A DNA stretch of 64,000 nt, from the NCBI RefSeq assembly GCF_003056345.1, contig NZ_PYWB01000005.1, positions 1-64,000 of the forward strand, in the 5' to 3' direction. The DNA is from Devosia submarina (GTDB lineage Bacteria > Pseudomonadota > Alphaproteobacteria > Rhizobiales > Devosiaceae). The notes under the pieces were generated by a model that made no database searches, was not told where the DNA came from, and worked only from the letters and a program-made list of their open reading frames with translations. The first letter of the stretch is position 1. Each line of letters opens with the position of its first letter. Position numbers and translations under genes: made by a program. Shown here piece by piece: positions 5,820 to 25,089 of the stretch.

Positions 5820-6631
5820 GCTGGTGCCTTTGCGGAAAGGGTGCGGGCGACGGCCTCAATGCGCTTGAGCATCAGCTGAAGGTGCGGGCGCAGGCGGGCG
5901 GTCTTGTCGGGGTCAAGCTCAAAGGGCGCGCTCTCGCGAACGAGATGCGTGTCTTGGGCTAGCTCGAGCTGGATGGCATGGACGTTATTGGCCGGGTCGG
6001 CATAGTGCCGCGTGGTCCAGCCGCCCTTGAAGCGGCCGTTGAGCACGCTGGTATAGGTCGTGGCATCACGCGCCGTGTTGATGGCGGCTTTTTCTATAGC
6101 GAGGTCGCAGGTGGTGCTGCCGTCGGTACCGATGTTGAAGTCGGGCAGCTTGCCCTCGAAAAGGAAGGGGATGTTGGAGCGGATGGAATGGCAGTCGAAG
6201 ATGACGGCGACGCCATGCTCGGCCCGGACGCGCGCGATCTCCGCCTTGAGGGCGGCGTGATAGGGCACGTGAAAGGTCGCGATACGCTCCGCAATGTCGT
6301 CCGCGTTAGGCTCTTCGCCCACTTTCCAGATGGGTTTTCCATCGAAATCGGTCAGGGGCACGAGGCCGGTCGTGTTCTGACCCGGATAGAGGCTTTCGTT
6401 TGATGGCGAGCGGTTGGCGTCGAGCACATAGCGGTGGAACAGCGCGCGAACCACCGAGGCACCAGGGAGCAGGCCGGCATAGAGGTGGTGAATATGCCAG
6501 TCGGTATCGGTGATCCCGACGCCCGTTTCATTAAGCCTTTGGCCGATGGCGTCGGGGATGAAGATGCCTGTATGCGGGAAGCCGAGAATGACTGGCGACG
6601 AGCCTTGCTGTACTTCGAAAACGTCCATCAC
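5816..6631 (-). CDS. hutG: N-formylglutamate deformylase (amidohydrolase)
   Basis: Final step of the five-step histidine pathway: hydrolyses N-formyl-L-glutamate to glutamate and formate. The 271-residue protein shows the N-formylglutamate amidohydrolase features [10 protein letters not shown] near the N-terminus (metal-binding His), a conserved HRYVLDANR segment and [10 protein letters not shown]. Its presence together with hutF shows that this organism uses the formylglutamate route rather than direct formiminoglutamate hydrolysis. It overlaps hutH upstream and hutU downstream by four bases each. Confidence 0.96.
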
Positions 6632-8163
6632 AGCGCCAGCCCCGGCAGAATGCCCGGCGAAACTGTGCCCGTCAGCGACCCGTCGGCGACGAGGCGGACG
6701 GAAGCCTCGATGTCGGGCGCCATGTAGCGGTCGACTTCCAGCTCGGGCACGACGCTGCGCAATGCTGTCCGCGCCTTGAGCAGTTCAGTGCCCGTCTGGA
6801 GCGGGGTGCGGCAATCGACCCCCTGTGTCGCGGTCAGTGCCTCGATGCCGATAATGCCGAAGAGGTTGTCGGTCATCTGCAGCAGCCGGCGGGCGCCGTG
6901 GCAGGCCATTGAGACGTGGTCTTCCTGATTTGCCGAAGTGGGCGTGGAATCGACCGATGCCGGGTGCGACATCTGCTTGTTTTCGCTCATCAGCGCGGCC
7001 GAAGTGACCTCGGCGATCATCAGGCCGGAATTGAGACCAGGCTTCTTGGCGAGGAAGGCGGGGAGACCATAGGAGAGCGCCGGGTCGACCAGCAGCGCGA
7101 TGCGGCGCTGGGCGATGGCGCCGATCTCGCAGATGGCGAGAGCGATCTGGTCGGCGGCAAAGGCGACCGGCTCGGCGTGGAAATTGCCGCCCGAGACGAC
7201 GCTGCCGTCGGAAAGGACCAGCGGATTGTCGGTGACGGCATTGGCCTCGATTTCGAGCGTCCGCCCCGCCGTGCGCAGAATGTCGAGGCAGGCGCCGTCG
7301 ACCTGGGGCTGGCAGCGGATGCAGTAGGGGTCCTGCACCCGCTCGTCGCCCTCAATATGGCTCTCGCGAATTTCCGAGCCGGCCAACAGAGCTCTCAGCG
7401 CCGCCGCGGTGTCGATCTGGCCCTGATGGCCGCGCAGGGTATGGATGTCGGGGTGGAAGGGTGCGGACGACCCCATGGCGGCGTCGGTCGACATGGCGCC
7501 GGTGATGAGTGCCGCCTGGGCCGCCCGGTGGGCGCGGAAAAGGCCGGCCAGCGCCAGGCCGGTGGAGGTCTGCGTGCCGTTGATCAGTGCGAGACCTTCT
7601 TTGGCCGCCAGCACGACGGGCGACAGGCCTGCCTTGGCGAGGGCTTCGCTGCCCGACATTTGCTCACCCCCAAAAAAGGCCTCGCCTTCGCCCATCATCA
7701 CGGCGGCCATGTGGGCGAGCGGTGCCAGATCGCCCGAGGCGCCGACCGAGCCCTTTTCGGGGATCAGCGGGATGACGCCCTTTGCCAGCATGGCTTCGAG
7801 CAGCCGGATCAGGTCCAGGCGAACGCCGGAAGCGCCACGACCGAGCGAGACCAGTTTGAGCGACATGATCAGGCGAACGATGTTTTCCGGCAGCGGCGCG
7901 CCGATGCCGCAGCAATGCGACAGGATCAGGTTGCGCTGCAGGGTGGCGACATCGGCCGCGTCGATCTTGATCGAGGCCAGTTTGCCGAAACCGGTATTGA
8001 CGCCATAGACCGCGGCATTGCCGCGGGCGATCGCTGCGATAAGTTCGGCGCCCTTGAGCACCGCCGCGTCGAATTGGGGGTCGAGCACGGCGGGCACGCC
8101 GGTCCAGTAGATGGTGCCCAGCACGCTCAGCGTAACGGCGCCCGGGGTCAGGACAATGGTCAT
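6628..8163 (-). CDS. hutH: Histidine ammonia-lyase (histidase)
   Basis: First step of histidine degradation: non-oxidative deamination of L-histidine to trans-urocanate and ammonia. The 511-residue protein carries Ala142-Ser143-Gly144 in [12 protein letters not shown], the tripeptide that cyclises into the electrophilic MIO cofactor; Ser143 has the same number as in the Pseudomonas putida enzyme. Tyr53 in YGVNTGFG is the expected catalytic tyrosine. Cytoplasmic homotetramer by family. The start overlaps the hutI stop by four bases. Confidence 0.98.
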
Positions 8164-9383
8164 AGCGTCTTGCCTTTGAAAATACGGCGTTCGAGCGGGT
8201 TAAAACCCATGCGGTAAACGAGTTCGGCCGGTGTTTCGCAGTTCCAGACAGCGAGATCGGCTGACTTTCCGGCCTCAATCGTCCCGGTTTCTGCCTCGAG
8301 GCCCAGGGCCTTCGCGGCATTGAGCGTGACGGCTGCGAGGCATTCACTGACGGTCATCCCGAAGAGGGTCGCAGCCATGTTCATGCCGAGGAGCAGGGAG
8401 GTGAGCGGCGACGTGCCGGGATTGCAGTCGGTGGCTATGGCCATGGCGACGCCGTGCCGGCGAAGGGCGTCGATATCCGGCTTCCGGGTTTCGCGGATGG
8501 CGTAAAAGGCGCCGGGCAGCATCACGGCGACGCTGCCGGATGCGGCGAGGGCGGCGGCATCGGCGTCCTCGATATATTCGAGGTGGTCCGCCGACAGCGC
8601 GCCACGGGAGGCAGCCAGTTTGGTGCCGCCGGATTGGCTCAATTGTTCGGCATGGAGTTTTACCGGCAGGCCCAGGGCCGCGGCACGATCAAACACCTGC
8701 GCCATCTCATCAGCGGTAAAGGCGATGCCTTCGCAAAAACCATCGACGGCATCGACCAGGCCTTCTGCATGCGCTTGGTCGAGCGCCGGCAGGACCACGT
8801 CGGCGAGATAGTCCTGTTTCCGGCCGCAAAATTCTTCTGGCACGGCATGCGCGGCGAGGAACGAAGTGACGATCCTGACGTCGCGATGCGTGGCGAGACG
8901 TCGTGCGGCGCGCAGCATGTCGAGCTCTGTCTCGATGGTCAGGCCATAGCCTGACTTGATCTCGACCGTGGTGATGCCTTCGGCCAAGAGCGCGTCGAGG
9001 CGGGGCAAGGCCTGGGCGATCAGTTGGTCGACGCTCAGCTCGCGCGTGGCGCGTACTGTGGACATGATGCCGCCGCCGGCCTGGGCGATTTCGACATAGT
9101 TTGCGCCGTCGAGCCGCATCTCGAACTCGCGGGCCCGGTGGCCGCCATGGACAGTGTGGGTGTGGCAGTCGATCAGTCCCGGCGTCACTAAGCAGCCATC
9201 GAGGTCAAAGACTTCGGCGACGCCATCGAGCGCCGGGGCATCGTCCGCCGATCCGGCGTAAGTAATCCGGCCGTTCTGCGCCACGATCACCCCGTCCGGG
9301 ATAACGTTTTGCCCCGCGACGCCCGTCAGCAGGCGGCAGTCTTTCCAGGCCTTGGTTGATGTTGGGTTGAAGAAATCTGTCAT
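8160..9383 (-). CDS. hutI: Imidazolonepropionase
   Basis: Third step of histidine degradation: opens the imidazolone ring of 4-imidazolone-5-propionate to give N-formimino-L-glutamate. This is a 407-residue amidohydrolase-superfamily protein with the metal-binding HxH in [15 protein letters not shown] and further zinc/iron and substrate residues in [17 protein letters not shown] and [10 protein letters not shown]. It is the first gene of the minus-strand hut operon; its start lies about 30 bases from the HutC-type operator that separates it from hutF. Confidence 0.97.
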
Positions 9384-9410: not shown

Positions 9411-9430
9411 TGTCTAAAATGTATAGACAT
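9411..9430. promoter_or_regulatory. HutC-type operator between hutI and hutF
   Basis: The 12-mer ATGTATAGACAT sits at 9419-9430 and contains the imperfect palindrome TGTATAGACA (consensus form TGTnTAnACA). A further half TGTCTA at 9411-9416 makes a perfect inverted repeat TGTCTA-N7-TAGACA. The same 12-mer recurs at 12782 and 13677. It resembles known HutC sites in proteobacteria, where the repressor is released by urocanate. The position between divergent hutI and hutF fits control of both. Confidence 0.75.
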
Positions 9431-9481: not shown

Positions 9482-10828
9482 ATGACCAGATTGTTCGCCA
9501 AGACCGCCCTGCTGCCCCAGGGGCTGGCGCATGATGTGCTGGTGGAGATCGAGGGCGATCGGATCCTTTCCGTCGTCACCGGTGCGTCGTCTGCCGATGC
9601 CGATGAGCATTACGGTGTGCTGGCTCCGGCGGTCAGTAATTTGCATAGCCATGCGTTCCAGCGCGCCATGTCCGGGTTGGCGGAGCGGCGGGGGCAGGGC
9701 GATGACACGTTCTGGAGCTGGCGATCGGTCATGTACAAGATGGCCCTGTCCATGACGCCGGATGACGTGCAGGCGATTGCCGCCCAACTCTATGTCGAAA
9801 TGCTGGAGGCCGGCTTTTGCCGGGTGGGTGAATTCCAATACCTGCATCACGATTGTGATGGCTCGCCCTATGCCAATATTGCGGAGATGGGCGCGCGTAT
9901 CGCGGCGGCCAGCGCGAAGACCGGTATTGGCCTGACCTTGCTGCCCGTCTTCTACGCCCATGGCGGCTTTGGGCCGACGGCGCCGGGCGTCGATCAACGG
10001 CGGTTCATCAACTCGGTCGATGGCTATGAAAAACTGATGGCTGCCAGTCGCGCGGCCATTGCCGGTGTCGAGGGCGCCCGTATCGGTATCGCGCCGCATA
10101 GCCTGCGCGCCGCAACGCTCGATGAGATCCGCGCAATATTGCCTATGGCCGAGGGCGGGCCGGTCCATACCCATATTTCCGAGCAGGTGCTCGAGGTCGA
10201 GGGGTGCATCAAGGCCCACGGCAGGCGGCCCGTGGAGTTGCTGCTGGGGGAATTGCCGGTGGATGGGAAATGGTGCCTGATCCACGCGACACATCTCGAC
10301 GACAAGGAAATTTCCGGTATCGCGAGGTACGGCGCCGTCGTCGGTCTCTGCCCGATCACCGAAGCCAATCTGGGCGACGGGATTTTTCCCGGCATGCCTT
10401 TTCTTGGCGAAGGCGGTGCCTTTGGCGTCGGTTCAGACTCCAATGTCAGCATCAGCCTTGCCGGTGAGTTGCGGCAGTTCGAATATAGCCAGCGCCTGGG
10501 CAATCGCATTCGCAATGCTGTGGCGTCGCCTGGTGGCTCTACGGGAGCGACGCTGCTTGAAAAGGCCGCTGCGGGTGGCGCGCAGTCGCTTGGCTGGCAG
10601 TCGGGTATTGCGGCAGGTCTGCCAGCGGATCTTGTGTCCCTGGATATTTCGCGTGTCAGCTATCTTCCCACCACCGACCTTCTCGATGCTTGGATATTTG
10701 GCGATGACGTTGCTGTTCAGGATGTTTGGGTCATGGGCCGGAAGCGCGTCGCTTCAGGTCGTCACCAGAGCCGCGAAATAGTCCGCCAGCAATTCGAACT
10801 GGCCATGCGGCGCGTCATGTCGGCTTGA
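9482..10828 (+). CDS. hutF: Formiminoglutamate deiminase
   Basis: Fourth step of the five-step pathway: converts N-formimino-L-glutamate to N-formyl-L-glutamate and ammonia. The 448-residue amidohydrolase-fold protein has the metal site HxH in NLHSHAFQRAM, plus FQYLHHD, IAPHSLRA, HTHISEQ and GVGSDSNVSISL, all typical of HutF. The frame is open from 9419, but that upstream ATG lies inside the operator. The ATG at 9482 has a GGAG seven bases before it and gives the family-like start MTRLFAKTALLPQG. It is divergent from hutI and followed by hutC on the same strand after about 50 bases. Confidence 0.96.
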   Translation: MTRLFAKTALLPQGLAHDVLVEIEGDRILSVVTGASSADADEHYGVLAPAVSNLHSHAFQRAMSGLAERRGQGDDTFWSWRSVMYKMALSMTPDDVQAIAAQLYVEMLEAGFCRVGEFQYLHHDCDGSPYANIAEMGARIAAASAKTGIGLTLLPVFYAHGGFGPTAPGVDQRRFINSVDGYEKLMAASRAAIAGVEGARIGIAPHSLRAATLDEIRAILPMAEGGPVHTHISEQVLEVEGCIKAHGRRPVELLLGELPVDGKWCLIHATHLDDKEISGIARYGAVVGLCPITEANLGDGIFPGMPFLGEGGAFGVGSDSNVSISLAGELRQFEYSQRLGNRIRNAVASPGGSTGATLLEKAAAGGAQSLGWQSGIAAGLPADLVSLDISRVSYLPTTDLLDAWIFGDDVAVQDVWVMGRKRVASGRHQSREIVRQQFELAMRRVMSA

Positions 10829-10880
10829 CGCCGCCCCTGATCGATCCGATTAGATTCCCAGTTTGTGTAGGGACTCCGGT

Positions 10881-11633
10881 TTGCGCGACATCGACAGAGG
10901 CGGCCAAATTCGAGAGCAGGACCCCAAAGAGCAGACGCTCCATCAGCGGATTCAGGGCGACATCGAAAACAAGATCCTGTCGGGCGATTGGCCCGTGGGT
11001 TTCCGCATTCCTTTCGAGGTAGACCTCGCCAAGCAATATGGCGTGTCGCGCATGACCGTGAACAAGGTGCTGACCCAATTGGCGCGCGCCGGCCTGATCG
11101 ATCGCGTCAAGCGCAGCGGCAGTTTCGTCAGCCAGCCGCACACGCAGTCGGCCGTGCTGGAAATCGGCGATATCCGGCGGGAAGTGGAATCGCTGAAACT
11201 GCCCTATGACTTCCGTGTCATCGAGCGCAGCAAGCACAAGGCGACTAGCGCCGATCGCCTGCGGCTCGATGTGCCTGCTTCGGCTTCGGTCATCGATATC
11301 ACGTGCCTCCATCGTGCCGGCGGCAAGCCGTTCTGCCTCGAAGAGCGCCTGATCAGCCTCGAAACCGTGCCGGAGGCGGAGGACGCTATCTTTACTGAAA
11401 TCACCCCCGGCCAGTGGTTGCTGCGTCAGGTGCCGTGGTCTTCGGCGGAACATCGCATCCATGCCTCGGCCGCCGACGCGGCAACGGCAGCGTCTCTCGG
11501 CGTCGAAGTCGGCACGGCGTGTCTCGTTATCGAGCGCCGGACCTGGCGCAATGGCGGGCCAGTCACCCAGGTCCGCCTCACCTATCCCGGGGACCGCCAT
11601 GCATTGACGGCAACCTTCGCTCCGGCGTCATGA
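10881..11633 (+). CDS. hutC: Histidine utilisation repressor, GntR/UTRA family
   Basis: A cytoplasmic transcriptional repressor of hut genes. The N-terminal winged helix (LHQRIQGDIENKILSGDWPVG, then YGVSRMTVNKVL and RVKRSGSFV) is of GntR/HutC type. The C-terminal UTRA domain (about 90-250) senses the inducer, urocanate in known HutC proteins. I place the start at the TTG at 10881 because AGGGA lies seven bases before it (250 residues); a TTG at 10863 is also possible. Likely targets are the three ATGTATAGACAT sites at 9419, 12782 and 13677. The stop overlaps the end of the convergent hisC-like gene by a few bases. Confidence 0.93.
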   Translation: MRDIDRGGQIREQDPKEQTLHQRIQGDIENKILSGDWPVGFRIPFEVDLAKQYGVSRMTVNKVLTQLARAGLIDRVKRSGSFVSQPHTQSAVLEIGDIRREVESLKLPYDFRVIERSKHKATSADRLRLDVPASASVIDITCLHRAGGKPFCLEERLISLETVPEAEDAIFTEITPGQWLLRQVPWSSAEHRIHASAADAATAASLGVEVGTACLVIERRTWRNGGPVTQVRLTYPGDRHALTATFAPAS

Positions 11634-12734
11634 CCGCGTCTTCGACAGCGCGTCGAGGAAGTGGTCGTTCTCGGCTGCAGTGCCGATGCTGACACGCACG
11701 AAGCGCTCGTAGTCGGGCTGTTTCCAGGGTTTTACGATGACACCCTCGGCCAACAGCGCCTCACTAATATCGGTGCCTGACGTTCCGGTGTCGAAGAACA
11801 GGAAATTGCCCCTGGACGGCACCACGCGATAGCCGGCTTCTTCCAGGGCTGACCTGACGCGCTCGCGCTCAGTTCTGGCGAGTTCGACCACCGTGCGCAC
11901 ATGCGCCTCACCATCCAGCGCAGCAATCGCGGCGGCCTGCGCTGCGCCATTGGTGTTGAAGGGCGTACGGACGCGATCGAGATAGCCGGTCAACAGCGAC
12001 GTGCTGACGATGCCATAGCCTATGCGGAGGCCTGCGAGCCCCCAGGCCTTGGAAAAGGTCCGAAGGACGATCCAATCGCTATCCTTGCCACGCATGGCGT
12101 CCGGCGCTTCGAGATAGCCATCGCCTTCGGCATATTCGGCATAGGCTTCGTCGATCACCAAAAGGCTTTGGGCAGGCACTGCCGCCGCGACACGGCGCAG
12201 GTCGTCGGGCTTGAGCCAGGCGCCGGCCGGGTTCATCGGATTGGCAAACATGACCAGTCGTGGACCAGTGCCGATTTTGGCGAGCAGCAGGTCGACGTCG
12301 ATTTCGAGCGCGGCGTCGAGGCCCACGCGATCAACCTCGGCTCCCATCACGGTGGTGTAATCTTCATGCAGCGGGAAAGACGGGTAGAGCGTGACCATGC
12401 GATCGCCGGGGCGCAGAATGGTTCGGCAAATGACGCTCAGCAGATCTTCCGATCCATTACCAAGAATTATCTGTTCGACCGCCACGCCGTGCTTTTCAGC
12501 AAGCCTCGTGCGCAGGGCCTGTCCAGCCGGATCGGGATAGATGTGCGAGTTGGCAGCATAGCTAGTCAGGGCCGAGACGACTGCGGGCGAGGGGCCAAGC
12601 GGGTTTTCATTGGAACCCAGCTTGCTGATTTTCCTGGGGTTATAGCGACGCTGCACCTCGGCAATGGTCAGGCCGGAATTGTATGGTGTGAGCTGTTTCA
12701 CTTCGGGCCGCACGATGTTCAGGTCACTTGCCAT
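11628..12734 (-). CDS. HisC-like aromatic/histidinol-phosphate aminotransferase
   Basis: A 368-residue PLP-dependent class I/II aminotransferase of the HisC type. Visible are SNENPLGPSP near residue 41, the Asp195/Tyr198 pair in VIDEAYAEY, the PLP lysine Lys229 in RTFSKAWGLAGLRIGYG, and the C-terminal substrate arginine region (FVRVSIGT). HisC exchanges the amino group between histidinol phosphate and imidazole-acetol phosphate; paralogues act on aromatic amino acids. Placement beside hutC and behind a HutC-type operator argues for a catabolic role rather than histidine biosynthesis, for example transamination of an imidazole keto acid. The substrate is inferred only. Confidence 0.85.
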   Translation of the reverse strand: MASDLNIVRPEVKQLTPYNSGLTIAEVQRRYNPRKISKLGSNENPLGPSPAVVSALTSYAANSHIYPDPAGQALRTRLAEKHGVAVEQIILGNGSEDLLSVICRTILRPGDRMVTLYPSFPLHEDYTTVMGAEVDRVGLDAALEIDVDLLLAKIGTGPRLVMFANPMNPAGAWLKPDDLRRVAAAVPAQSLLVIDEAYAEYAEGDGYLEAPDAMRGKDSDWIVLRTFSKAWGLAGLRIGYGIVSTSLLTGYLDRVRTPFNTNGAAQAAAIAALDGEAHVRTVVELARTERERVRSALEEAGYRVVPSRGNFLFFDTGTSGTDISEALLAEGVIVKPWKQPDYERFVRVSIGTAAENDHFLDALSKTRS

Positions 12735-12781
12735 TTGCCGGCCCTTCCGAATTCTGTCGGCCCTGAATCTGGCCGGAAATT

Positions 12782-12793
12782 ATGTATAGACAT
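12782..12793. promoter_or_regulatory. HutC-type operator between hisC-like and SDR genes
   Basis: An exact copy of ATGTATAGACAT. It lies 48 bases upstream of the hisC-like start and 51 bases upstream of the SDR start, in a divergent promoter region, so it could control both genes. Confidence 0.7.
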
Positions 12794-12843
12794 GATTGAT
12801 CGGAAGTGCTGATATCTGTCAACAGGGATGGAGGAGCCTTGGC

Positions 12844-13611
12844 ATGAATGGTCCAGCAGCCTTTGATCTGACCGGGCGCCACGCCCTCGTGACCGGCGGC
12901 AGCCGGGGGCTTGGCCAGGCCATGGCCCTGGCCCTAGCGAAGATGGGCGCCGAGGTTTGCGTGACCTCGCGCAATGCGGCCTCTCTCGGTGACACTCTTG
13001 ATCAGCTGGAGGCTGCCAGCAGGCCGGGTAGGGGCCTTGCTCTCGATGTGCGGGACAGTGCTGCCATTCGCGGGGCCATCGACAGGCTCGATGCGGACTG
13101 GCCCGTGGATATTCTCGTCAACAATGCCGGCATCGAGCATGTCGCCCCCTCCCTCGATGTCGACGAAAGCATCTGGGACGCGATTGTCGATACCAATCTC
13201 AAGGGCAGTTTCTTTTGCTCGCAGGCCGTGGCTCGCCATATGGCCGGGCGCGGACGCGGGGCGATCGTCAACTTGTGTTCGCTGACCACCTATGTCGGCA
13301 TTCCCACCGCGGTGCCCTATGGTGCCTCGAAATCGGGGCTGCTGGGCATGACGAAGGCCTTGTCGGCCGAATGGGCCACGAGCGGCATCCGGGTCAACGC
13401 CATAGCGCCGGGCTATTTCCGGACGCAGATGACCGAAGGCTTTTATGCGGATGAGGCGTGGGCAAGCTCCATGCAGTCCAAAATACCGCAGCGCCGATTT
13501 GGCGAAATGGCCGATATTGGTGGTGCCGTGGTCTTCCTCGTCAGTGATGCCTCGGCCTATGTCACAGGTCAGTGCATTGCAATAGATGGAGGCTATCTGG
13601 CGTCGATCTGA
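12844..13611 (+). CDS. SDR-family dehydrogenase of the HutC-linked cluster
   Basis: A classical short-chain dehydrogenase/reductase of 255 residues: cofactor motif GGSRGLG (18-24), NNAG (93-96), and the catalytic Ser146, Tyr159 and Lys163 (YGASK). Closest by pattern to gluconate 5-dehydrogenase-type SDRs, which oxidise a secondary alcohol with NAD(P)+. The ATG at 12844 has GGAGGAG seven bases upstream and is preferred over an ATG at 12796. It is placed between two HutC-type operators, before the importer and the HisD paralogue. It may oxidise or epimerise a hydroxyl of the imported compound; the substrate is unknown. Confidence 0.85.
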   Translation: MNGPAAFDLTGRHALVTGGSRGLGQAMALALAKMGAEVCVTSRNAASLGDTLDQLEAASRPGRGLALDVRDSAAIRGAIDRLDADWPVDILVNNAGIEHVAPSLDVDESIWDAIVDTNLKGSFFCSQAVARHMAGRGRGAIVNLCSLTTYVGIPTAVPYGASKSGLLGMTKALSAEWATSGIRVNAIAPGYFRTQMTEGFYADEAWASSMQSKIPQRRFGEMADIGGAVVFLVSDASAYVTGQCIAIDGGYLASI

Positions 13612-13676
13612 CCCTTCTGCTGAAGATTTGGGCAGCAATTGGGTTTGCTCAAAAATGGATTGACCTGCAGTCCAAT

Positions 13677-13688
13677 ATGTATAGACAT
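13677..13688. promoter_or_regulatory. HutC-type operator before the ABC importer operon
   Basis: Third exact copy of ATGTATAGACAT, 45 bases before the start of the importer ATPase gene. It makes the seven-gene operon 13734-21485 a probable HutC target. Confidence 0.72.
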
Positions 13689-13733
13689 CATTTACAGGGC
13701 GGGCGCCTGGTGGGTGATCTGATAGGATCCTGA

Positions 13734-14864
13734 ATGACTGGCATGACCAAAAGCGACGGGAAACAGAAGGCTGCGGTCGCCGTATCCGTCCAGAACGTCA
13801 ACATGACCTTCGATGGCTTCCATGCGGTTGACTCGGCGTCATTCGATTTGGACCAGGGACGTTTCCTGACTATTCTTGGTCCCTCCGGATCCGGCAAGAC
13901 GACGTTGCTGCGCATGATCGCCGGTTTCCAGAAGCCGAGTTCGGGCGAGATTTTCATCAATGGCGCGCCGGTGAGTGCAGCTCCGCCGCACAAGCGCTCG
14001 GTCGGCATGGTGTTCCAGAAGCTGGCGCTGTTTCCGCACATGACGGCGGCTGAGAATGTTGCCTTCCCGCTCAAGATGCGCCGCTTCGATGCCACGACCA
14101 TTCCGGAGCGCGTGCAGCGCTACCTCGATCTGGTGCAGCTTGGTTCTTATGCCGACCGCCGCATCCATCAGCTTTCAGGTGGTCAGCAGCAGCGCGTCGC
14201 CATCGCACGGGCCCTGGTGTTCGAGCCTGACCTGCTCCTGCTCGACGAGCCCCTGGCGGCGCTCGACCGCAAGCTGCGCGAGGAAATGCAGCTCGAATTC
14301 CGTCGTATTCAGCGCGAGTTGGGCGTGACCACGATCAACGTCACCCATGACCAGCGCGAGGCCCTCGTGGTGTCGGACGAAGTCGTCGTCATGGACAAGG
14401 GGCGTATCCAGCAGATGGCGTCGCCCACAGCGACCTATCGCACGCCTGCCAATGCCTTCGTCGCCGGCTTTATCGGGGTGACCAATTTCCTCAACGGCAC
14501 AGTCAAGTCGACCGCCGGCCAGGAAGTGATATTCGCGGCCGGCGAAAGAGAATTTATCGGACATTGGAGCGCTGCCGCTGGCGCTCCGACAGTGTCTGCA
14601 AACGTGGTGGGCGCATTGCGGGCCGAACAGGTCCGCATGGCTACCAGTGCAGACGAACTCGGGCAGTGCCGCACGGTGCTGTCCGCAGCGGTGACGGATG
14701 CCATCTTCGAAGGGGAGCGGACAGCGTATGAAGTCACTGTCGGCATGGATGGCAATATCATCAGGGTCTTCGACCACGACCCTGCTGCACACAAGCAGTT
14801 CGGCATCGGCGAAGCCGTGTTCATCGGCTGGAACCCGCAGGACGTAATGATCTATCCAAATTAG
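13734..14864 (+). CDS. ABC importer ATPase, PotA-like
   Basis: A 376-residue ATP-binding subunit of the spermidine/putrescine-iron importer class. Walker A GPSGSGKTT (49-57), Q-loop, signature LSGGQQQR, Walker B LLLLDEPLAALD and the His-switch NVTHDQ are all present, followed by a C-terminal TOBE-type regulatory domain. It energises uptake through the two permeases at 16072 and 17013, with the binding protein at 14899. It is the first gene of the operon, just behind a HutC-type operator; AGGA lies before the ATG. A short GC hairpin (14866-14879) follows the stop. Confidence 0.93.
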   Translation: MTGMTKSDGKQKAAVAVSVQNVNMTFDGFHAVDSASFDLDQGRFLTILGPSGSGKTTLLRMIAGFQKPSSGEIFINGAPVSAAPPHKRSVGMVFQKLALFPHMTAAENVAFPLKMRRFDATTIPERVQRYLDLVQLGSYADRRIHQLSGGQQQRVAIARALVFEPDLLLLDEPLAALDRKLREEMQLEFRRIQRELGVTTINVTHDQREALVVSDEVVVMDKGRIQQMASPTATYRTPANAFVAGFIGVTNFLNGTVKSTAGQEVIFAAGEREFIGHWSAAAGAPTVSANVVGALRAEQVRMATSADELGQCRTVLSAAVTDAIFEGERTAYEVTVGMDGNIIRVFDHDPAAHKQFGIGEAVFIGWNPQDVMIYPN

Positions 14865-14898
14865 GCCGGGCGTGCCCGGTGGGAACAGGAGAGAACGG

Positions 14899-16005
14899 AT
14901 GACCAAGACTAAATCGACTTATGCGCTGACGCGCCGCCGCTTCCTGGGTAGCGCAGCCGCGCTTGGCGGCCTCGCCGCGACCGGCTGGACCGGGCAGGCC
15001 TTTGCGCAGGAACCCGAAAAGCCAGCCGAAATCATCGTGCGCGCCTGGGGTGGCTCCTGGGTCGCCAGCCTGCAGGCCGGCGTGTCCGATCCGTTCACTG
15101 CCGCAACCGGCATTGCCGTGCGCCATGACCTCACGGAAGACAATGAAATCCAGCCCAAGGTCTGGGCCGCCGTTGCGCAGGGTCGCATCCCGCCGATCCA
15201 CATCAACTGGGACACCACCACCAATGCCACCAAGTCGGCACTGCGTGGCGTAACCGAGGACCTGTCCGATCTGGCTAACCTTGCCAATACGACCGAACTG
15301 GCCAAGCCGGTTGGCCTCGAGGGCTACCCGATCGTCAATACCTATGGCTATGTCTATGTGCTGGCCTATCGCCCATCGGCTTTCCCCGAGGGCGCGCCGA
15401 CGTCGCTGCAGGTGCTGCTCGATCCCAAATTCAAGGGCCGTATCGCGCTCTACAATGACGGCATAGGTTTCCACTTCCCAGCACAGGTCGCCGGCGGCGG
15501 CAAGCTGGAAGACATTCCGGACAATATGGATGCTGCCTGGTCCTTCATCGAGAAGGTCAAGGAACAGCAGCCCCTTCTCGGCGAAGATCCCGATTTCACC
15601 AACTGGTTCCAGAATGGCGAGATCGATCTGGCCGTGACCATTTCGACCAATGCTCGTGAAGCCATGAAGAACGGCATCGAGCTGGCTTGGACGGTCCCCG
15701 AAGAGGGCTCCAAGTTCGAAACCGATGGCCTGTGGATCCCGAAGGGCCTGCCCGAGAACGAACTCTACTGGGCCAAGCAGTACATCAACTTCGCCATTTC
15801 CAAGGACGCCCAGCAGGTCTGGCTCGATGGTCTGGGCCTGCCCGGCGTGGTACCGGGCCTGACGCCGCCGGAAGGCCTTGCCGGCGATCCGTCCTACCCG
15901 ACCGAGCCGGCGGACTTCGAGCGCCTCATCCGCGTTCCGACCGCCATCCAGGTCGAGCATGAGAGCGAGTGGTTCGGCAAGTTCAAGGCGATCATGCAGG
16001 GCTAA
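14899..16005 (+). CDS. Periplasmic solute-binding protein, PotD-like, Tat-exported
   Basis: A 368-residue extracellular solute-binding protein of the spermidine/putrescine-type family. The N-terminus has a twin-arginine motif TRRRFLG followed by a hydrophobic stretch and an AFAQE cleavage site, so export through Tat is likely. The mature part begins IIVRAWGGSW and contains DLTEDNEIQPKVWA and the WIPKGLPE segment typical of the class. The ATG at 14899 follows AGGAGA. Ligand not deducible; context (HutC operators, HisD and HisC paralogues) suggests a nitrogen-containing imidazole or amino alcohol. Confidence 0.9.
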   Translation: MTKTKSTYALTRRRFLGSAAALGGLAATGWTGQAFAQEPEKPAEIIVRAWGGSWVASLQAGVSDPFTAATGIAVRHDLTEDNEIQPKVWAAVAQGRIPPIHINWDTTTNATKSALRGVTEDLSDLANLANTTELAKPVGLEGYPIVNTYGYVYVLAYRPSAFPEGAPTSLQVLLDPKFKGRIALYNDGIGFHFPAQVAGGGKLEDIPDNMDAAWSFIEKVKEQQPLLGEDPDFTNWFQNGEIDLAVTISTNAREAMKNGIELAWTVPEEGSKFETDGLWIPKGLPENELYWAKQYINFAISKDAQQVWLDGLGLPGVVPGLTPPEGLAGDPSYPTEPADFERLIRVPTAIQVEHESEWFGKFKAIMQG

Positions 16006-16009
16006 GCCT

Positions 16010-16047
16010 GCCCGGCGTTGTGATCAGGGATGTCGCCCATGCCGGGC
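16010..16047 (+). other. Inverted repeat after the binding-protein gene
   Basis: GCCCGGC at 16010-16016 pairs with GCCGGGC at 16041-16047, a 7-bp stem with a 24-base loop in the gap between binding-protein and permease genes. Such hairpins often protect the abundant upstream mRNA segment. No U-run follows, so full termination is unlikely. Confidence 0.4.
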
Positions 16048-16071
16048 GGCATCCACCGGCAAGGAGTTACC

Positions 16072-17016
16072 ATGCGATCCTATCGCACCGCATATCCATT
16101 TCGATGGAGGGTGATGGACACCCTCGAGATGCTGGCGCGAGTCCTCTGGCCGAACCGCTTCTCTGGCGCCGTGCCCTATCTAATGCTGGCGCCGGCCGTG
16201 CTGCTGGTGCTGCTGCTGGTCATCGGCATGGCGCAGATCGCGGATTCTAGCCTGCATGTGCTGGATCGATCGACCTTCCTGCCGTCTGCCGACTTTACTC
16301 TGGCGAATTATCAGACCGCCTTAAGGCAGCCGCTCTACTGGATGATCATCTGGCGCTCTCTCCTTGGCGCGGCAGTGGTGACGCTGCTGTCGCTGATCTT
16401 TGCCTTTCCCTATGCCTATCTGATGGTGCGCACGCCCAGTGCGCTGCTGCGAAAATTCCTGCTGATCGCGCTGTTCCTGCCCTTCTTCATCGGTCAGGTC
16501 GTGCGCGCCTATGGCTGGCTCATCATTCTAGGCAATCAGGGCGTGATGAATGAAATGCTGGGCTGGGTGGGCATAGAGCCGCAGCGCCTGCTGTTCAATT
16601 ACCCCGCCGTGCTGTTCGGCCTCGTGCAATATATGCTGCCCTTTGCCGTGCTGATGCTGGCGCCGGCCATCACTGCCATTCCCGAAGAGATCGAGTCTGC
16701 CGCCAGCTCGCTCGGCGCCAACTGGTGGCGCACCTTCACCCACGTGATCCTTCCCATGTCCAAGCCGGGTCTGGTCGGAGCAGGGCTTGTCGTTCTGACC
16801 CTCTCGCTCACCGACTTCGCCATGCCAGCGGTTCTGGGCGGTGGCTCGCAGGATTTCATCGCCAACGCCATCTATGACCAGTTCTTCCGCACGTCCGACC
16901 AAGGGATGGGTGCCGCGTTGACGCTCTTCCTTGTCGGCATCGGCTCCCTGGTTGTCGGGGTGATCTTCACCGTCTTCGGCGCCGGCACGCTCGCCATGGG
17001 GAGGGGCAAGAAATGA
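16072..17016 (+). CDS. ABC importer permease, PotB-like
   Basis: Inner-membrane permease of 314 residues with about six transmembrane segments and the cytoplasmic EAA loop (EIESAASSLGANWWRTFTHVILPMSKPG) that docks on the ATPase. I start at the ATG at 16072 because AAGGAG lies five bases before it; the upstream ATG at 16030 lacks a site. Its stop overlaps the start of the second permease by four bases. It forms the channel with the 17013 product. Confidence 0.93.
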   Translation: MRSYRTAYPFRWRVMDTLEMLARVLWPNRFSGAVPYLMLAPAVLLVLLLVIGMAQIADSSLHVLDRSTFLPSADFTLANYQTALRQPLYWMIIWRSLLGAAVVTLLSLIFAFPYAYLMVRTPSALLRKFLLIALFLPFFIGQVVRAYGWLIILGNQGVMNEMLGWVGIEPQRLLFNYPAVLFGLVQYMLPFAVLMLAPAITAIPEEIESAASSLGANWWRTFTHVILPMSKPGLVGAGLVVLTLSLTDFAMPAVLGGGSQDFIANAIYDQFFRTSDQGMGAALTLFLVGIGSLVVGVIFTVFGAGTLAMGRGKK

Positions 17017-17813
17017 CCGCTCCCCTGAGCAAATCAATCGTCATCTGGGTCATGGTCGGCCTGGTGCTCCTGACCCTGTCAGCGCCAACCGTCGTAGTGT
17101 TAGGCGCCAGCTTCACCTCGGGCAATATCATCGTGTTCCCGCCCAATGGCTTCTCGCTGCAGTGGTATGGCAAGATAGCCAGCGATGTTGGCCTGCGCGG
17201 CGCCTTCATGCGATCACTGACTGTTGCCGCGATCTGCACTGTGATTGCCATCCCCGTTGGCACACTGGCCGGCATCGCCCTTGCTAAATATGCCATCAAG
17301 TTCGAGCGCAGCCTGCAGGTCTACCTGCTGCTGCCCTTCACCATCCCGCTAATCGGCTCGGGAATCGGCCTGATGCTCTTGTTTGGGCAGATGGGCATTT
17401 TGGGGCAAATCTGGCCGATCGGTATCGCCTGCTGCGTCATCAATCTGCCCTTCATGATCTGGGCCGTCACCGCCAGCGCTGCGAACCTCGATCCCGATCT
17501 CGAACTTGCCGCCGCCAATTGCGGCGCACCACCCATCGCTACCTTCTTTCACGTGACGCTACCGGCCGTGATGCCGGGTGTGATCAGCGGGTCGCTGCTA
17601 ATGTTCATCCTGGCACTCAACGAGTTCCTCGTCAGCCTGCTGCTGACCGATGCCCGAACCGTCACCCTGCCGGTGCAGATCTACAATTCCATTCGCTCGA
17701 TCATCACTCCCGATCTTGCCGCAATCTCGGTCGTCTTCATCGCCTGCGCGGCGATTATCATCGCGCTGCTGGACCGGCTCGTCGGCCTTGACATCTTCCT
17801 CAAATCCAAGTGA
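17013..17813 (+). CDS. ABC importer permease, PotC-like
   Basis: Second inner-membrane permease, 266 residues, about six transmembrane helices. The EAA loop reads DLELAAANCGAPPIATFFHVTLPAVMPG. It begins inside the stop of the first permease (ATGA overlap) and completes the importer made of ATPase, binding protein and two permeases. The HisD paralogue follows 40 bases later. Confidence 0.92.
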   Translation: MTAPLSKSIVIWVMVGLVLLTLSAPTVVVLGASFTSGNIIVFPPNGFSLQWYGKIASDVGLRGAFMRSLTVAAICTVIAIPVGTLAGIALAKYAIKFERSLQVYLLLPFTIPLIGSGIGLMLLFGQMGILGQIWPIGIACCVINLPFMIWAVTASAANLDPDLELAAANCGAPPIATFFHVTLPAVMPGVISGSLLMFILALNEFLVSLLLTDARTVTLPVQIYNSIRSIITPDLAAISVVFIACAAIIIALLDRLVGLDIFLKSK

Positions 17814-17853
17814 CGGCGTTCGCGTCGCCGCTCGTTATTCCATGAGACCCGCC

Positions 17854-19176
17854 ATGACCAATGTGTCCTTCCACACCTATGCCGAACTCGACCAGGAGCA
17901 GCGCGCAGCCCTGTTGCGCCGTTCAGAGGCCGACCTCTCCGGTGTCATCGAGAAGGTAAAGCCCATTATCGAGGCCGTCCGGACCCAAGGCGACGAAGCG
18001 CTGGTTCGCTTCGCGCGTGACTTCGATCGCTCCGAAGGCGTGCACAAGGGCAATCTTAAGGTCACCGAGGCCGAATTCGACGCTGCTTTCAAACTGGTCG
18101 ATGCTGAGGTGATCGATGCCATCAAATTCGGCACCGAAAACATCCGCAGCTTCCACGAAGAGCAGAAGCCTGAGACTATGTGGATGAAGGAGATCCGTCC
18201 CGGCGCCTTCGCGGGCGATCGCTTCACCCCCATCCAGTCGGTGGCGCTCTACGTGCCGCGCGGCAAGGGCTCCTTCCCGTCCGTGACCATGATGACCTCC
18301 GGTCCTGCCATGGTGGCCGGGGTTCCCAATGTCGCCATCGTCACCCCGCCGGCTCCCGATGGCACGGTGGATGCCGCAACGCTGGTGGCGGCGCGTCTCG
18401 CCGGCGTGGAAACCGTCTACAAGGTGGGCGGTGCGCAGGCCGTCGCGGCGGTTGCCTATGGCACCGATACGATCAAGCCAGCGCTCAAGGTCGTCGGCCC
18501 GGGCAGCCCCTGGGTCGTCGCAGCCAAGCGCCTCCTCGCCGGAGTGCTCGATACCGGCCTCCCTGCCGGCCCGTCGGAAGCCGTCATCTTTGCCGATGAT
18601 ACTGTCGATGGCAGCCTCGCAGCCCTCGATCTGCTGATCGAAGCCGAGCACGGCCCGGACTCGTCCGCCTATCTCGTGACCCACAGCCGCCGCGTCGCCG
18701 AAGAGGCACTGGCCGCGCTGCCCGGCTTCTGGGCCCAGATGACCGAACAGCGCGTCGGCTTTTCGACCACGGTGCTGACCGGCAAGAATGGTGGCATCGT
18801 GCTGACCGAGGCAGTGGAGCAGAGCTACGATTTCATCAATGCCTATGCGCCCGAGCATCTCGAAATCCTCTCGACCGAGCCTTATGACCATCTCGGCCGT
18901 ATAACTGAAGCCTCGGAAATCCTGCTCGGCCAATATACGCCGTGCTCGATCGGCAACTTCGGCCTTGGACCCAATGCCGTGCTGCCCACGAGCCGCTGGG
19001 CCCGCACCTATGGGCCTCTGTCGGTGACAGACTTCGTCAAGCGCAGCTCCATCGGCTATGTGACCGCCGCCGGTTTCCCGCTGCTCGCCGGCCATGCCCA
19101 CAAGCTGGCCCTCTACGAAGGTTTTTCGTCCCATGCCATCGCCGTCTCGCCCGAACGCTACAAGCACGTCCGGTAA
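17854..19176 (+). CDS. Divergent histidinol-dehydrogenase paralogue
   Basis: A 440-residue HisD-family NAD+-dependent dehydrogenase. HisD oxidises L-histidinol to histidine in two steps. The catalytic pair is kept (Glu334-His335 in APEHLEI), as are AGPSEAVIFAD and Zn ligands His266 and His427. Three key positions differ, with spacing identical to E. coli HisD: Gln259 is Glu263, Asp360 (zinc ligand) is Asn368 in GNFGLGPN, and His367 is Ala375 in NAVLPT. It is therefore unlikely to be a normal biosynthetic HisD, and it also lacks the residues kept in the sulfopropanediol dehydrogenase HpsN. It lies in a HutC-controlled transport operon, so a catabolic alcohol dehydrogenase role is inferred. Start at 17854; an in-frame ATG at 17842 is possible. 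Confidence 0.88.
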   Translation: MTNVSFHTYAELDQEQRAALLRRSEADLSGVIEKVKPIIEAVRTQGDEALVRFARDFDRSEGVHKGNLKVTEAEFDAAFKLVDAEVIDAIKFGTENIRSFHEEQKPETMWMKEIRPGAFAGDRFTPIQSVALYVPRGKGSFPSVTMMTSGPAMVAGVPNVAIVTPPAPDGTVDAATLVAARLAGVETVYKVGGAQAVAAVAYGTDTIKPALKVVGPGSPWVVAAKRLLAGVLDTGLPAGPSEAVIFADDTVDGSLAALDLLIEAEHGPDSSAYLVTHSRRVAEEALAALPGFWAQMTEQRVGFSTTVLTGKNGGIVLTEAVEQSYDFINAYAPEHLEILSTEPYDHLGRITEASEILLGQYTPCSIGNFGLGPNAVLPTSRWARTYGPLSVTDFVKRSSIGYVTAAGFPLLAGHAHKLALYEGFSSHAIAVSPERYKHVR

Positions 19177-19182
19177 AAGCCC

Positions 19183-20193
19183 ATGAAAGCCGTTCGTCTG
19201 CATGCCGTCCGCGACCTGCGCTTTGAAGAGGTCGATGCCCCGCAGCAGCCCGGGCCGGGCGAGGTTCTGATCGATGTGGAAGCCGCGGGTATCTGCGGCT
19301 CGGACCTGCATAATTTCTCGACCGGCCAGTGGATCAGCCGGTCGCCGTCCATTGTAGGCCATGAAGTGTGCGGCCGCGTGGCCGCGGTCGGAGCGGATGT
19401 GACGGGGTTCATGCCACGCGACGCCGTGGTGGCCGATTCCCGCTATTGGTGCGGAGAATGTGACAATTGCCGCTCGGGCGATCGCAATTCATGCGCCTCG
19501 CTGGGTTTTATCGGCGAAGTCTGCGATGGCGGTTTTGCCGAGCAGCTCTTGTTGCCCGCCCGTCTCGTTATCAAACGGCCCGATGATCTGCCTGCAAATC
19601 TCGCCGTCATGTCTGAACCGGTTGCTGTGGCGCTGCATGCGCTCGGCAAGCTCGCCGTCGAGCCCGGCGCGCCGGTGCTGGTCGTTGGCTGCGGCACGAT
19701 TGGGGGCCTTTGCGCCCTCGCTCTGTCGAAGCGCCATGACGGCCCCATTCTGCTGGCTGACCGCAATGTCGAACGCGCCGACGCCGTAGCGCGAGCCACT
19801 GCTTGCAAGATTGTCGCTCTAGAGCGCGCTGCCATCGCAGAGGCGCTGGGTGGCAAGCCGATCCGCTTCGCCATTGACGCCACCGGCAGCATTGCAGCGC
19901 TCTGCGCGGTCATAGAGCTCATGGGCAGCAATTCCAGGCTGGTTCTAGTCGGCATCAGCCACGGCAAGCTCGATCTCGATCCAAACGTGCTGGTCGAGCG
20001 GGAAATCACCCTCCTTGGCTCCCACGCCTTCAAGGACGAGTTGCCGGACGCCATTGCCATGGCGGGTGAGTTGAGTGCCGTCCTGCCGCAGTTCATCAAC
20101 GAGACCGTGCGCCTCGAAGAGGTGCCCGACGCCTTCCAGCGCCTGCTTGCCGGAAAGGCGAGGGGGCTGAAAACCATTATCGAGATCGCGTAG
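19183..20193 (+). CDS. Zinc-dependent alcohol dehydrogenase (MDR family)
   Basis: A 336-residue medium-chain dehydrogenase of the sorbitol/threonine dehydrogenase type. Catalytic zinc residues are Cys38 (GICGSD), His60 and Glu61 (GHE). A structural zinc is held by Cys90, Cys93, Cys96 and Cys104 (WCGECDNCRSGDRNSC). The NAD(P) site is GCGTIGG. It oxidises a secondary alcohol, or a primary one, with NAD(P)+. The gene starts six bases after the HisD-like stop and ends six bases before the kinase gene. It may act on the same diol or amino alcohol as the SDR and the HisD paralogue; the substrate is unproven. Confidence 0.9.
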   Translation: MKAVRLHAVRDLRFEEVDAPQQPGPGEVLIDVEAAGICGSDLHNFSTGQWISRSPSIVGHEVCGRVAAVGADVTGFMPRDAVVADSRYWCGECDNCRSGDRNSCASLGFIGEVCDGGFAEQLLLPARLVIKRPDDLPANLAVMSEPVAVALHALGKLAVEPGAPVLVVGCGTIGGLCALALSKRHDGPILLADRNVERADAVARATACKIVALERAAIAEALGGKPIRFAIDATGSIAALCAVIELMGSNSRLVLVGISHGKLDLDPNVLVEREITLLGSHAFKDELPDAIAMAGELSAVLPQFINETVRLEEVPDAFQRLLAGKARGLKTIIEIA

Positions 20194-20198
20194 CAGCC

Positions 20199-21485
20199 AT
20201 GACAGCCTCTCCCAGCCGTACGGCCGAAATCCGCGCGGTCGCCAAGGACAATCCTGATCGCGCCCAGCTGATGCTGGGCGAGCTGTTGCACGATCTGTTC
20301 GACATCCATCCGCGCAACGTCACGATCAACTACGATCAGTACAGCCTCAATTCGCTCAACGGCTTCTTCGATACCGACACCGAGGCCTATTTCTTCAAGT
20401 TCCACCAGGAGGAAGGCGAGGAGGCGATGAGCGGGGAATATTATCGCGCCGACATCCTCGCCCGCGCCGGCCTGCCGGTCGATCGGCCGGTGCATATGTC
20501 CGTGCTGCCGGGCGAGCAGATCCTGGTCTATCGCCGGCGCAAGGATCGCCGCCTTTCCGATGTGCTGCGGGCCCTCGACCTCAAGGACGATCCGGCGCTG
20601 CGCCGTATTGCTGCCGATGCGGAGAGCCGGCTGAGTGACCGGGTCATGGACGTCTATCGACAGACCCTCCATCCGATCGCAGCCGATGAGGCCGCCAATG
20701 AGCCGATCAATCGCCTGTTTTTCGAGCGCCTGATCGATCCGGCCACGGGCGCCTATCCCGGCGGGCGTCTCAAGAGCTTTTATGTCGACCAGAGTTTTGC
20801 CTTTCCCGGCGCCACTCTCACTTGGCCGGACTTCGCCGATGCTCGGTTCGTCATCAATGGCGTCGCTTATAGCGAAACGATCCGCCAGCTTTTCGACGGC
20901 GCTCATGCTCGCCTCAAGCCTTCGCTGCTGGCTGATGTGGGTGGCGTCGTCGCGCATGGCGATGCGCATAATGCCAATGTCTGGTTCGTGGAGCAGGGGA
21001 ACAGCGCCGATCTCAGCTTCTTCGACCCGGCCTTTGCCGGCGACAATGTGCCGACCCTGCTGGCGGAGGTGAAGACCACCTTCCACAATATCCTCGCGCA
21101 TCCGCTCTGGCTCTACGACCCTGAAGAGCTCGAGCGAACCTATTCGGCCAGCGCGCGCTACAGCAATGGCACGCTGGAGATCGAAACGGACTGGCAGTTG
21201 ACGCCCGTGCGCGCCGACCTCCTGCGCATCAAGGCCGAGAAGTCCTGGAAGCCGCTGCTGCAATTGCTTAGGAATCGCGACTTGCTGCCGCAAGACTGGC
21301 GCCGTGTCGTCCGCCTATCGCTGTTCCTCTGCCCGACGCTGGTCATGAACCTGCGAGCGGGCGCCTCGCGCCACAATCCAACCTCATCGCTGATCGGTTT
21401 CGCCAACGCGGTCCGCGCCGGCAGCGAGCCCCTGGGCGGGTCCGATTTCGTCTCGGCAATGCTGGATCAAGTCACACCGCGCTGA
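20199..21485 (+). CDS. APH-like small-molecule kinase or phosphotransferase
   Basis: A 428-residue protein that I recognise only through its kinase-fold motifs: the catalytic loop VVAHGDAHNANVWF (His253, Asp255, Asn260) and FFDPAFAGDN with metal-binding Asp276. Lys67 in AYFFKFHQEEG may be the ATP-binding lysine. The family phosphorylates hydroxyls of small molecules. It is the last gene of the HutC-linked operon, six bases after the alcohol dehydrogenase gene. A kinase together with a HisC-like aminotransferase suggests a phosphorylated intermediate, but this is speculation. A strong hairpin (21524-21546) follows. Confidence 0.7.
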   Translation: MTASPSRTAEIRAVAKDNPDRAQLMLGELLHDLFDIHPRNVTINYDQYSLNSLNGFFDTDTEAYFFKFHQEEGEEAMSGEYYRADILARAGLPVDRPVHMSVLPGEQILVYRRRKDRRLSDVLRALDLKDDPALRRIAADAESRLSDRVMDVYRQTLHPIAADEAANEPINRLFFERLIDPATGAYPGGRLKSFYVDQSFAFPGATLTWPDFADARFVINGVAYSETIRQLFDGAHARLKPSLLADVGGVVAHGDAHNANVWFVEQGNSADLSFFDPAFAGDNVPTLLAEVKTTFHNILAHPLWLYDPEELERTYSASARYSNGTLEIETDWQLTPVRADLLRIKAEKSWKPLLQLLRNRDLLPQDWRRVVRLSLFLCPTLVMNLRAGASRHNPTSSLIGFANAVRAGSEPLGGSDFVSAMLDQVTPR

Positions 21486-22893: not shown

Positions 22894-22938
22894 GTTGTGG
22901 CTTTCGGAGGCATGTTATAGAAGGTTTGCGGATTTGGT

Positions 22939-22984
22939 ACTTCGAAGTTGACAGATAATGTACGATCTGGAAAGTACTGAGTAC
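22939..22984. promoter_or_regulatory. Candidate operators of the FCD regulator
   Basis: Two perfect palindromes lie in the divergent region: ACTTCGAAGT (22939-22948) and GTACT-G-AGTAC (22974-22984). GTAC half-sites fit the GT...AC pattern of GntR/FCD operators. Which of the two is bound cannot be decided from sequence. Confidence 0.4.
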
Positions 22985-23078
22985 CGGCAGCCGAGAATGC
23001 CGCGCAATGAGTGGCCGCATCAAGCGGCCCGGTATGTTCCAAATGTCGTTTGCAGGCGTTGCGCCGGGCGGAGGAAAA

Positions 23079-25019: not shown

Positions 25020-25031
25020 GCCAACCAGTTG

Positions 25032-25054
25032 CGGGGTGGCGCCAAGCCACCCCG
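25032..25054 (+). other. Hairpin after the binding-protein gene
   Basis: CGGGGTGGC and GCCACCCCG form a perfect 9-bp stem around GCCAA in the gap between binding-protein and permease genes. It has no T-run. It probably stabilises the upstream mRNA end or attenuates downstream expression, as is common in ABC importer operons. Confidence 0.5.
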
Positions 25055-25089
25055 TCTCGACCAAACACCTAATTTTTCTGGAGGCGAAG

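Follow-up and report, generated by a model that had tools for sequence, protein, structure and literature searches.

A conserved putative import and oxidation block with a divergent HisD-family dehydrogenase beside the hut genes of Devosia submarina

A putative import and oxidation block adjoining the hut genes

In the breakdown of dihydroxypropanesulfonate (DHPS), a short-chain dehydrogenase (SDR) and a medium-chain dehydrogenase (MDR) interconvert the enantiomers of the diol, and a HisD homologue oxidizes its CH2OH group to COOH (PMC11382572, PMC11131964). This homologue, HpsN, carries a specific motif, G-R-Y-A/S-H, that ends in His126 (PMC11382572), and in HisD the metal ligands are Gln259, His262, Asp360, and His419 (PMC5585171). 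For HutC, the repressor of histidine utilization (hut) genes, the operator consensus of the subfamily is NyGTMTAKACNy (PMC4494728), and the Pseudomonas site is TGTA-N2-TACA (PMC12977541). Here we describe a block of import and oxidation genes with features of these systems, which adjoins the hut genes in a 64-kb window (the whole stretch of DNA analyzed, from contig NZ_PYWB01000005.1) of the 3.98-Mb genome of Devosia submarina.

Genes in the window were scored against the TIGR/NCBIfam and Pfam models. HutU, HutG, HutH, HutI, HutF, and HutC each exceeded the cut-off of their own TIGR equivalog model, and next to hutF and hutC lie an aminotransferase, an SDR, a PotABCD-type ATP-binding cassette (ABC) importer, a HisD paralogue (hereafter HisD2), a zinc alcohol dehydrogenase (ADH), and a kinase (Table 1). 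The gene content and layout given in the initial annotation, which had read the block as a pathway feeding histidine degradation under one urocanate-sensing regulator, are confirmed.

A scan with the binding protein, using one genome per species, gave 179 stretches encoding a relative. The best 80 of these were kept, yielding 79 loci (1.55 Mb) that by name are mostly from Hyphomicrobiales and Rhodobacterales. Their genes were called by a codon-usage score, since calling by the longest open reading frame picked antisense frames in GC-rich DNA, and gene presence was counted by tblastn. The order SDR-potABCD-hisD2-(ADH)-(kinase) is conserved: the binding protein was detected in all 79 loci, PotA in 78, the two permeases in 78 and 78, the SDR in 76, HisD2 in 72, the ADH in 59, and the kinase in 39, the absences being partly due to stretch ends, as 15 of the stretches do not reach 20 kb. 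The module is widespread, with nearly all of these best loci keeping the block. The aminotransferase, found in only 23 loci, does not belong to the core, and a flavin mononucleotide (FMN) 2-hydroxyacid dehydrogenase was found in 15. On one contig of a metagenome-assembled Rhizobium genome (L057), SDR-potABCD is duplicated in inverted orientation, which may be an artefact of assembly.

HutC-type operators and independence from hut

Three exact copies of the 12-mer ATGTATAGACAT are present in the window and none elsewhere in the genome; base composition would give 0.0017 and 0.10 copies by chance in the window and the genome, respectively. As the initial annotation had noticed, the copy between hutI and hutF recurs in the block, and the three positions amount to one site per presumed transcription unit. 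ATGTATAGACAT fits the subfamily consensus, the Pseudomonas site covers the TGTATATACA variant present in some related loci, and a HutC-family repressor is encoded nearby. A promoter scan showed nothing above chance.

The related loci display the same arrangement. Of the 75 loci tested (four were dropped, having no forward SDR or too little sequence), 54 have the strict motif in the 300 bp preceding the SDR. The 1.55 Mb contains 79 strict sites in total, and each is no more than 400 bp away from the start of an SDR, aminotransferase, potA, or hut gene. At least one hut enzyme is found within about 10 kb in 18 of the 79 loci, in several different layouts, and a HutC-family regulator is encoded in 50. 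The HutC-family wiring predicted from these sites is well supported by the comparative evidence, and we consider the architecture and wiring as described here very probably correct. Control by a single hut regulator, as first suggested, fares less well: the operator is indeed common with hut, but in 38 of the 79 loci the best regulator match is a second HutC-family paralogue, usually encoded, in the gene calls of these loci, directly after the ADH inside the operon, so the block regulator would not always be the hut repressor itself. Three of these operon-borne paralogues were scanned, and all exceeded the HutC cut-off of 220 (263.6, 255.5, and 250.3 bits).

The coupling to hut was evaluated by comparing urocanase in 78 module genomes (the 79 loci minus L088) and 121 relatives. 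Many genomes, often beside the true enzyme, encode a urocanase-like protein scoring near 690 bits, which to judge from the NCBIfam models is probably a thiourocanate hydratase; a threshold of 899 bits or more was used for this reason. Matches at E 0.001 were obtained in 70 of 78 module genomes vs 60 of 121 relatives. At a score of at least 899 bits, the figures were 68 of 78 vs 19 of the 114 relatives without the module's binding protein (four of the seven relatives with it, and 23 of 121 overall), a contrast that is suggestive only, because the genome sets differ in taxonomy.

Eight of the 78 module genomes, several of them metagenome assemblies, lack urocanase. Together with two single-contig genomes of the window's genus that are 99–100% complete (G015 and G057), they make up ten module genomes in which hutU and hutH are absent and the block is kept. 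The motif is missing from all nine of these that were testable; when genomes are split by urocanase, it is present in 0 of 7 testable genomes without the enzyme vs 53 of 67 with it (Fisher p 6.5e-5, relatedness not corrected). The same contrast is seen within the window's genus, where one genome (G028) has the layout of the window, with the aminotransferase and three exact sites, and three others (G015, G057, and L022) have the block and no site, hut gene, or aminotransferase in the stretch. From this contrast and these counts, HutC control travels with hut, and the pathway itself is independent of hut, which is the chief result against the earlier reading: with ten genomes keeping the block in the absence of hutH and hutU, feeding histidine degradation is optional. 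The initial annotation is therefore partly supported, in its wiring and not in its pathway. In G015, the gene before the block is MYG1-like.

Table 1. Features of the hut region and the adjoining block in the 64-kb window
Feature	Position	Strand	Basis
hutU, hutG, hutH, hutI operon	4152..9383	-	NCBIfam equivalogs
HutC-type operator ATGTATAGACAT, between hutI and hutF	9419..9430		exact match
hutF	9482..10828	+	TIGR02022, 574.9 bits (cut-off 413.05)
hutC, GntR/UTRA repressor, presumed block regulator	10881..11633	+	TIGR02018, 290.8 bits (cut-off 220)
HisC-family aminotransferase, divergent from SDR, accessory	11628..12734	-	TIGR01141, 301.3 bits (cut-off 276.55)
HutC-type operator ATGTATAGACAT, common to aminotransferase and SDR	12782..12793		exact match
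SDR, gluconate-5-dehydrogenase-like, core	12844..13611	+	profile matches; 76/79 loci
HutC-type operator ATGTATAGACAT, upstream of potA	13677..13688		exact match
PotA-type ABC ATPase	13734..14864	+	TIGR01187, 364.1 bits (cut-off 355.6)
Periplasmic solute-binding protein, SBP_bac_8	14899..16005	+	Pfam and fold comparison
ABC permease, PotB-like	16030..17016	+	family profile
ABC permease, PotC-like	17013..17813	+	family profile
HisD2, HisD-superfamily dehydrogenase, Glu/Asn metal-site signature	17842..19176	+	TIGR00069 and alignment
Zinc ADH, threonine/sorbitol dehydrogenase-like	19183..20193	+	profile matches; 59/79 loci
APH-fold small-molecule kinase, without family model	20199..21485	+	predicted fold, motifs; 39/79 loci

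A TTG upstream of the hutC start, at 10863, is a possible alternative start. Downstream of the block, an FCD-type GntR regulator is encoded at 22192–22893 (minus strand) and a SBP_bac_5 peptide-type importer begins at about 23007; this stretch (22192–28924) is apparently a system apart.

HisD2, its partner proteins, and their spread

HisD2 matches the HisD family profile (TIGR00069, 420 bits over 243.8), and a separate canonical HisD is encoded in the same genome. In the alignment of 76 module HisD2 rows, Gln259 is replaced by Glu and Asp360 by Asn (E. coli numbering) in every row; the zinc ligands His262 and His419 are kept, as are the catalytic Glu326 and His327 (76 of 76) and Glu414, and position 367, which is His in HisD, is Ala in 74 rows and Cys in two. 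At the place of the HpsN motif, all 76 read K-G-S/A-F, with Phe at the His126 position. HisD2 also scores higher against HisD than against HpsN structures, and its clade has a support of 100/100, although the position of this clade relative to the outside sequences is unsure, HpsN and E. coli HisD being on long branches. By these sequence comparisons, HisD2 is a distinct clade of the HisD superfamily, neither a canonical HisD nor a DHPS dehydrogenase. Where annotation is shown, it is labeled as a histidinol dehydrogenase and frequently given a histidine-biosynthesis term, an assignment that the metal-site signature and the operon context put in question; the kinase is annotated as a hypothetical protein.

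With two of the four zinc ligands changed in all rows, histidinol is not assured as the substrate of HisD2. That Glu259/Asn360 excludes histidinol is opposed by one genome (G127; 20 contigs, listed as 100% complete), in which the only two HisD-family genes found, at C10:270638-271945 (outside the module) and C6:88560-89864, are both of the Glu/Asn type and imidazoleglycerol-phosphate dehydratase (IGPD, HisB) is present at E 3.5e-67. As this is the sole HisD type found in an IGPD-bearing genome, Glu/Asn-type HisD can probably oxidize histidinol and make histidine. In another genus (f87), a single HisD-family gene was seen in four of four genomes, with the Glu/Asn signature in the three checked. 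Its IGPD matches are weak in three genomes and absent in the fourth, and for this reason nothing is drawn from the genus on HisD2. In this genus (loci L136 and L138, in G159 and G216), the IGPD-like matches in long frames are all divergent, so that its histidine pathway may be an unusual one or be replaced by another.

As for the importer, the ATPase of the window exceeds the PotA profile, and the binding protein falls far below the PotD profile (NF007048, 20.9 vs 582); the fold of the latter is nearest to the opine binders AgtB and MotA, to 4i1d, and to PotD-type binding proteins. The aminotransferase scores above the cut-off of the profile for HisC histidinol-phosphate aminotransferase and, with 532.3, just below that of a closer model, NF003496 (540). 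A PF13561 SDR and a PF08240/PF00107 MDR lie near HisD2, as is characteristic of HpsN neighborhoods; HpsO is not the closest relative of this SDR, which resembles gluconate dehydrogenases and the unassigned SDR 4j2h more. The PDB entry 4j2h, described only as alcohol dehydrogenase-related, is probably orthologous to the module SDR, with which it scores 330 bits.

At E 0.001, neither Pfam, with its families of APH/choline-kinase-like kinases, nor NCBIfam yields a match for the kinase, and phmmer against the PDB was uninformative. APH-type kinases are recognized by an HGDxHxxN loop and a downstream invariant Asp. The predicted fold (pLDDT 87) is APH/methylthioribose-kinase/PsiK-like, and when the window protein is aligned with 35 homologues (of 120 listed), HGDAHNAN and DPAF show no variation, in agreement with that signature. 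In an even sample of the phylum, seven of 398 genomes, one of them that of the window, encode the kinase.

Enterobacterial plasmids (L098, L110, and L112) also carry the enzyme genes of the module, with a different importer. On Klebsiella plasmids, the genes for HisD2, kinase, ADH, and SDR are accompanied by an NMT1-type importer, an alpha-hydroxy acid oxidase, and a hydroxypyruvate-reductase-like gene; all of the 120 listed among 7713 homologues of the Klebsiella HisD2 have Glu259, Asn360, and Phe138, and no near match to this module was detected in E. coli genomes. A Pantoea plasmid holds the same four genes and importer type, with two exact HutC-type sites before the operon. By Pfam, the importer is likewise NMT1-like in two further genomes (G285 and G221). 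In G285 and G171, the block adjoins an old yellow enzyme (OYE)-type gene, which was considered as a clue to a demethylase and dropped; in G285, imperfect sites lie between this gene and the SDR.

The whole block is found on pSymA of Sinorhizobium meliloti 1021, with ATGTATAGACAT and ATGTATAGACAA before the SDR and potA and comprising the aminotransferase, SDR, potA, binding protein, permeases, hisD2 (78% identity), ADH, HutC paralogue, kinase, and FMN dehydrogenase. It bears the literature names SMa0387 to SMa0402 (hisC3, hisD2, ABC transporter, GntR). In a tolC mutant, SMa0387, 0391, 0392, 0394, 0396, 0398, and 0402 are down 8- to 23-fold, and hutU, hutG, and hutH are lowered likewise (PMC2912261). 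In the portions of the literature available, these genes are named only in work on expression, small RNAs, and the regulator of polyhydroxybutyrate, and the transporter is called of unknown function.

Proposed pathway, its alternatives, and related systems

Taken together, these features are best explained by a self-contained uptake-and-oxidation module for a small nitrogenous alcohol, to which we assign a probability of roughly 50%. The ABC importer would bring in the alcohol, the SDR and the zinc ADH would oxidize or interconvert its secondary alcohol via the ketone, and HisD2 would perform the four-electron oxidation of the neighboring CH2OH to the carboxylate, in a working scheme akin to HpsO-HpsP-HpsN of DHPS breakdown. 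Where present, the FMN 2-hydroxyacid dehydrogenase and the HisC-like aminotransferase would take the product to the keto acid and then to the amino acid. In hut-bearing hosts, the module would mostly be under HutC or an operon-carried HutC paralogue via TGTATAGACA operators; in the window, repression is likely to be exerted by HutC itself, with urocanate probably as the inducer. The enzyme trio, mirroring HpsNOP, suggests that a chiral 1,2-diol or amino alcohol is the starting compound and an acid the oxidized product, and this direction of the pathway is plausible.

Because of the HutC wiring and the HisC-type partner, our preferred substrate, held tentatively and at a little under even odds, is an imidazole alcohol with three carbons, namely L-histidinol, imidazolyl-propanediol, or imidazole acetol; the histidine or imidazole-lactate formed from it would provide the link to hut. 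Some Arthrobacter use histidinol. Histidinol and imidazolelactate are among the metabolites of bean root exudate (PMC4192682).

Several observations weigh against this proposal. Besides the ten genomes without hutH and hutU, the taxonomic make-up of the groups in the urocanase comparison, and the two zinc ligands altered in all HisD2, the strict motif is absent before the SDR in 21 of 75 loci, 14 of them in urocanase-bearing genomes, and in the Klebsiella locus sites are no more frequent than chance. The best structural matches of the binding protein bind opines, gamma-aminobutyrate (GABA), or polyamines, with no recognizable imidazole binder among the 50 best. In the bean study, histidinol was not detected in phosphorus-sufficient exudate at the date discussed (PMC4192682), and in the tolC mutant ntrB, ntrC, nitrate, and many other nitrogen genes fall as well (PMC2912261), so the co-expression of block and hut may be general nitrogen control.

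A substantial part of these points is shared by an explanation that we consider less probable yet sizable, namely that the module degrades a non-imidazole nitrogenous diol or amino polyol (opine-like or DHPS-like) and that HutC-family control is an adopted, chemically uninformative nitrogen-source switch. The persistence of the block without hut genes or motif, the fold of the binding protein, the parallel of the enzyme trio with the DHPS genes, the exchange of importer type, and the drop of the S. meliloti genes alongside ntrC and nitrate genes are all in line with it. Against these stand the operators common with hut in different layouts, the adjacent hut genes in 18 loci, the operon-borne regulator that scores as HutC itself, and the attachment of a HisC-family aminotransferase in 23 loci.

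Salvage, in which imported histidinol or imidazole acetol would become histidine mainly for protein synthesis, with the hut coupling secondary, is unlikely. The block proteins do belong to the HisD and HisC families, G127 has no other HisD type that was found, and hut-less genomes retain the module; but the SDR, zinc ADH, kinase, and FMN dehydrogenase would be superfluous for such a role, and 15 of the 16 module genomes examined also encode a HisD that scores higher (545 bits or more) and is presumably the canonical enzyme. Degradation of DHPS by an hpsNOP-type operon, despite the same three enzyme families and an alpha-hydroxy acid oxidase in both, was rejected as very improbable, since Phe replaces His126 of HpsN in 76 of 76 HisD2, HisD2 scores closer to HisD, and the SDR is not closest to HpsO.

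Returning to the imidazole alcohol, a broader and still more tentative proposal is that HisD2, with its Glu/Asn metal site, forms a functional class of its own in the HisD superfamily, the third. The pathway built around it, undescribed and spreading horizontally, would act on an imidazole diol or amino alcohol from the environment, use interchangeable importers, and have been recruited repeatedly into the histidine regulon by HutC and its operon-borne paralogue. If the substrate is indeed an imidazole alcohol, the block would be a branch that enters histidine catabolism upstream of histidine, of a kind not found in the literature searched, and would help to predict, from genome sequences, the small nitrogenous alcohols that bacteria acquire from roots and soil. 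In that search, which covered few subscription journals, no described function for the module was found.

Compared with published HutC regulons, the block has in common the operator sequence, the neighboring hutC and hut genes, and an importer under HutC (PMC5343134, PMC4494728, PMC12977541). In the portions of these papers available, the regulon differs in that its importers are the histidine transporters HutXYZ, HisXYZ, and HisT, and a catabolic HisD, SDR, ADH, or kinase is not described; histidinol is not named in the main text, supplements aside, of PMC5343134 and PMC12977541. With hpsNOP, as far as described in the sources above, it shares a HisD-superfamily enzyme, a gluconate-dehydrogenase-like SDR, a sorbitol/threonine-dehydrogenase-like MDR, and an importer in one operon. 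An alpha-hydroxy acid oxidase accompanies some loci of each type, among them a Leisingera locus with an HpsN-type motif. The differences are the missing His126 and the Glu259/Asn360 of HisD2, another importer, HutC-type operators, the kinase, and sometimes an aminotransferase. Window and Leisingera proteins are 33% (HisD2-HpsN), 40% (SDR-SDR), and 30% (ADH-ADH) identical; given these low identities and an SDR nearer to gluconate dehydrogenases and 4j2h, the parallel is a likeness of logic, not of membership. HisD2 resembles HisD in its fold family, in Glu326/His327, in the zinc ligands His262/His419, and in Glu414, the imidazole contact in HisD, and differs at Gln259 (Glu), Asp360 (Asn), and His367 (Ala), the canonical enzyme being encoded separately. 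Also close is the orthologous pSymA block SMa0387-SMa0402 of S. meliloti, with its sites before the SDR and potA.

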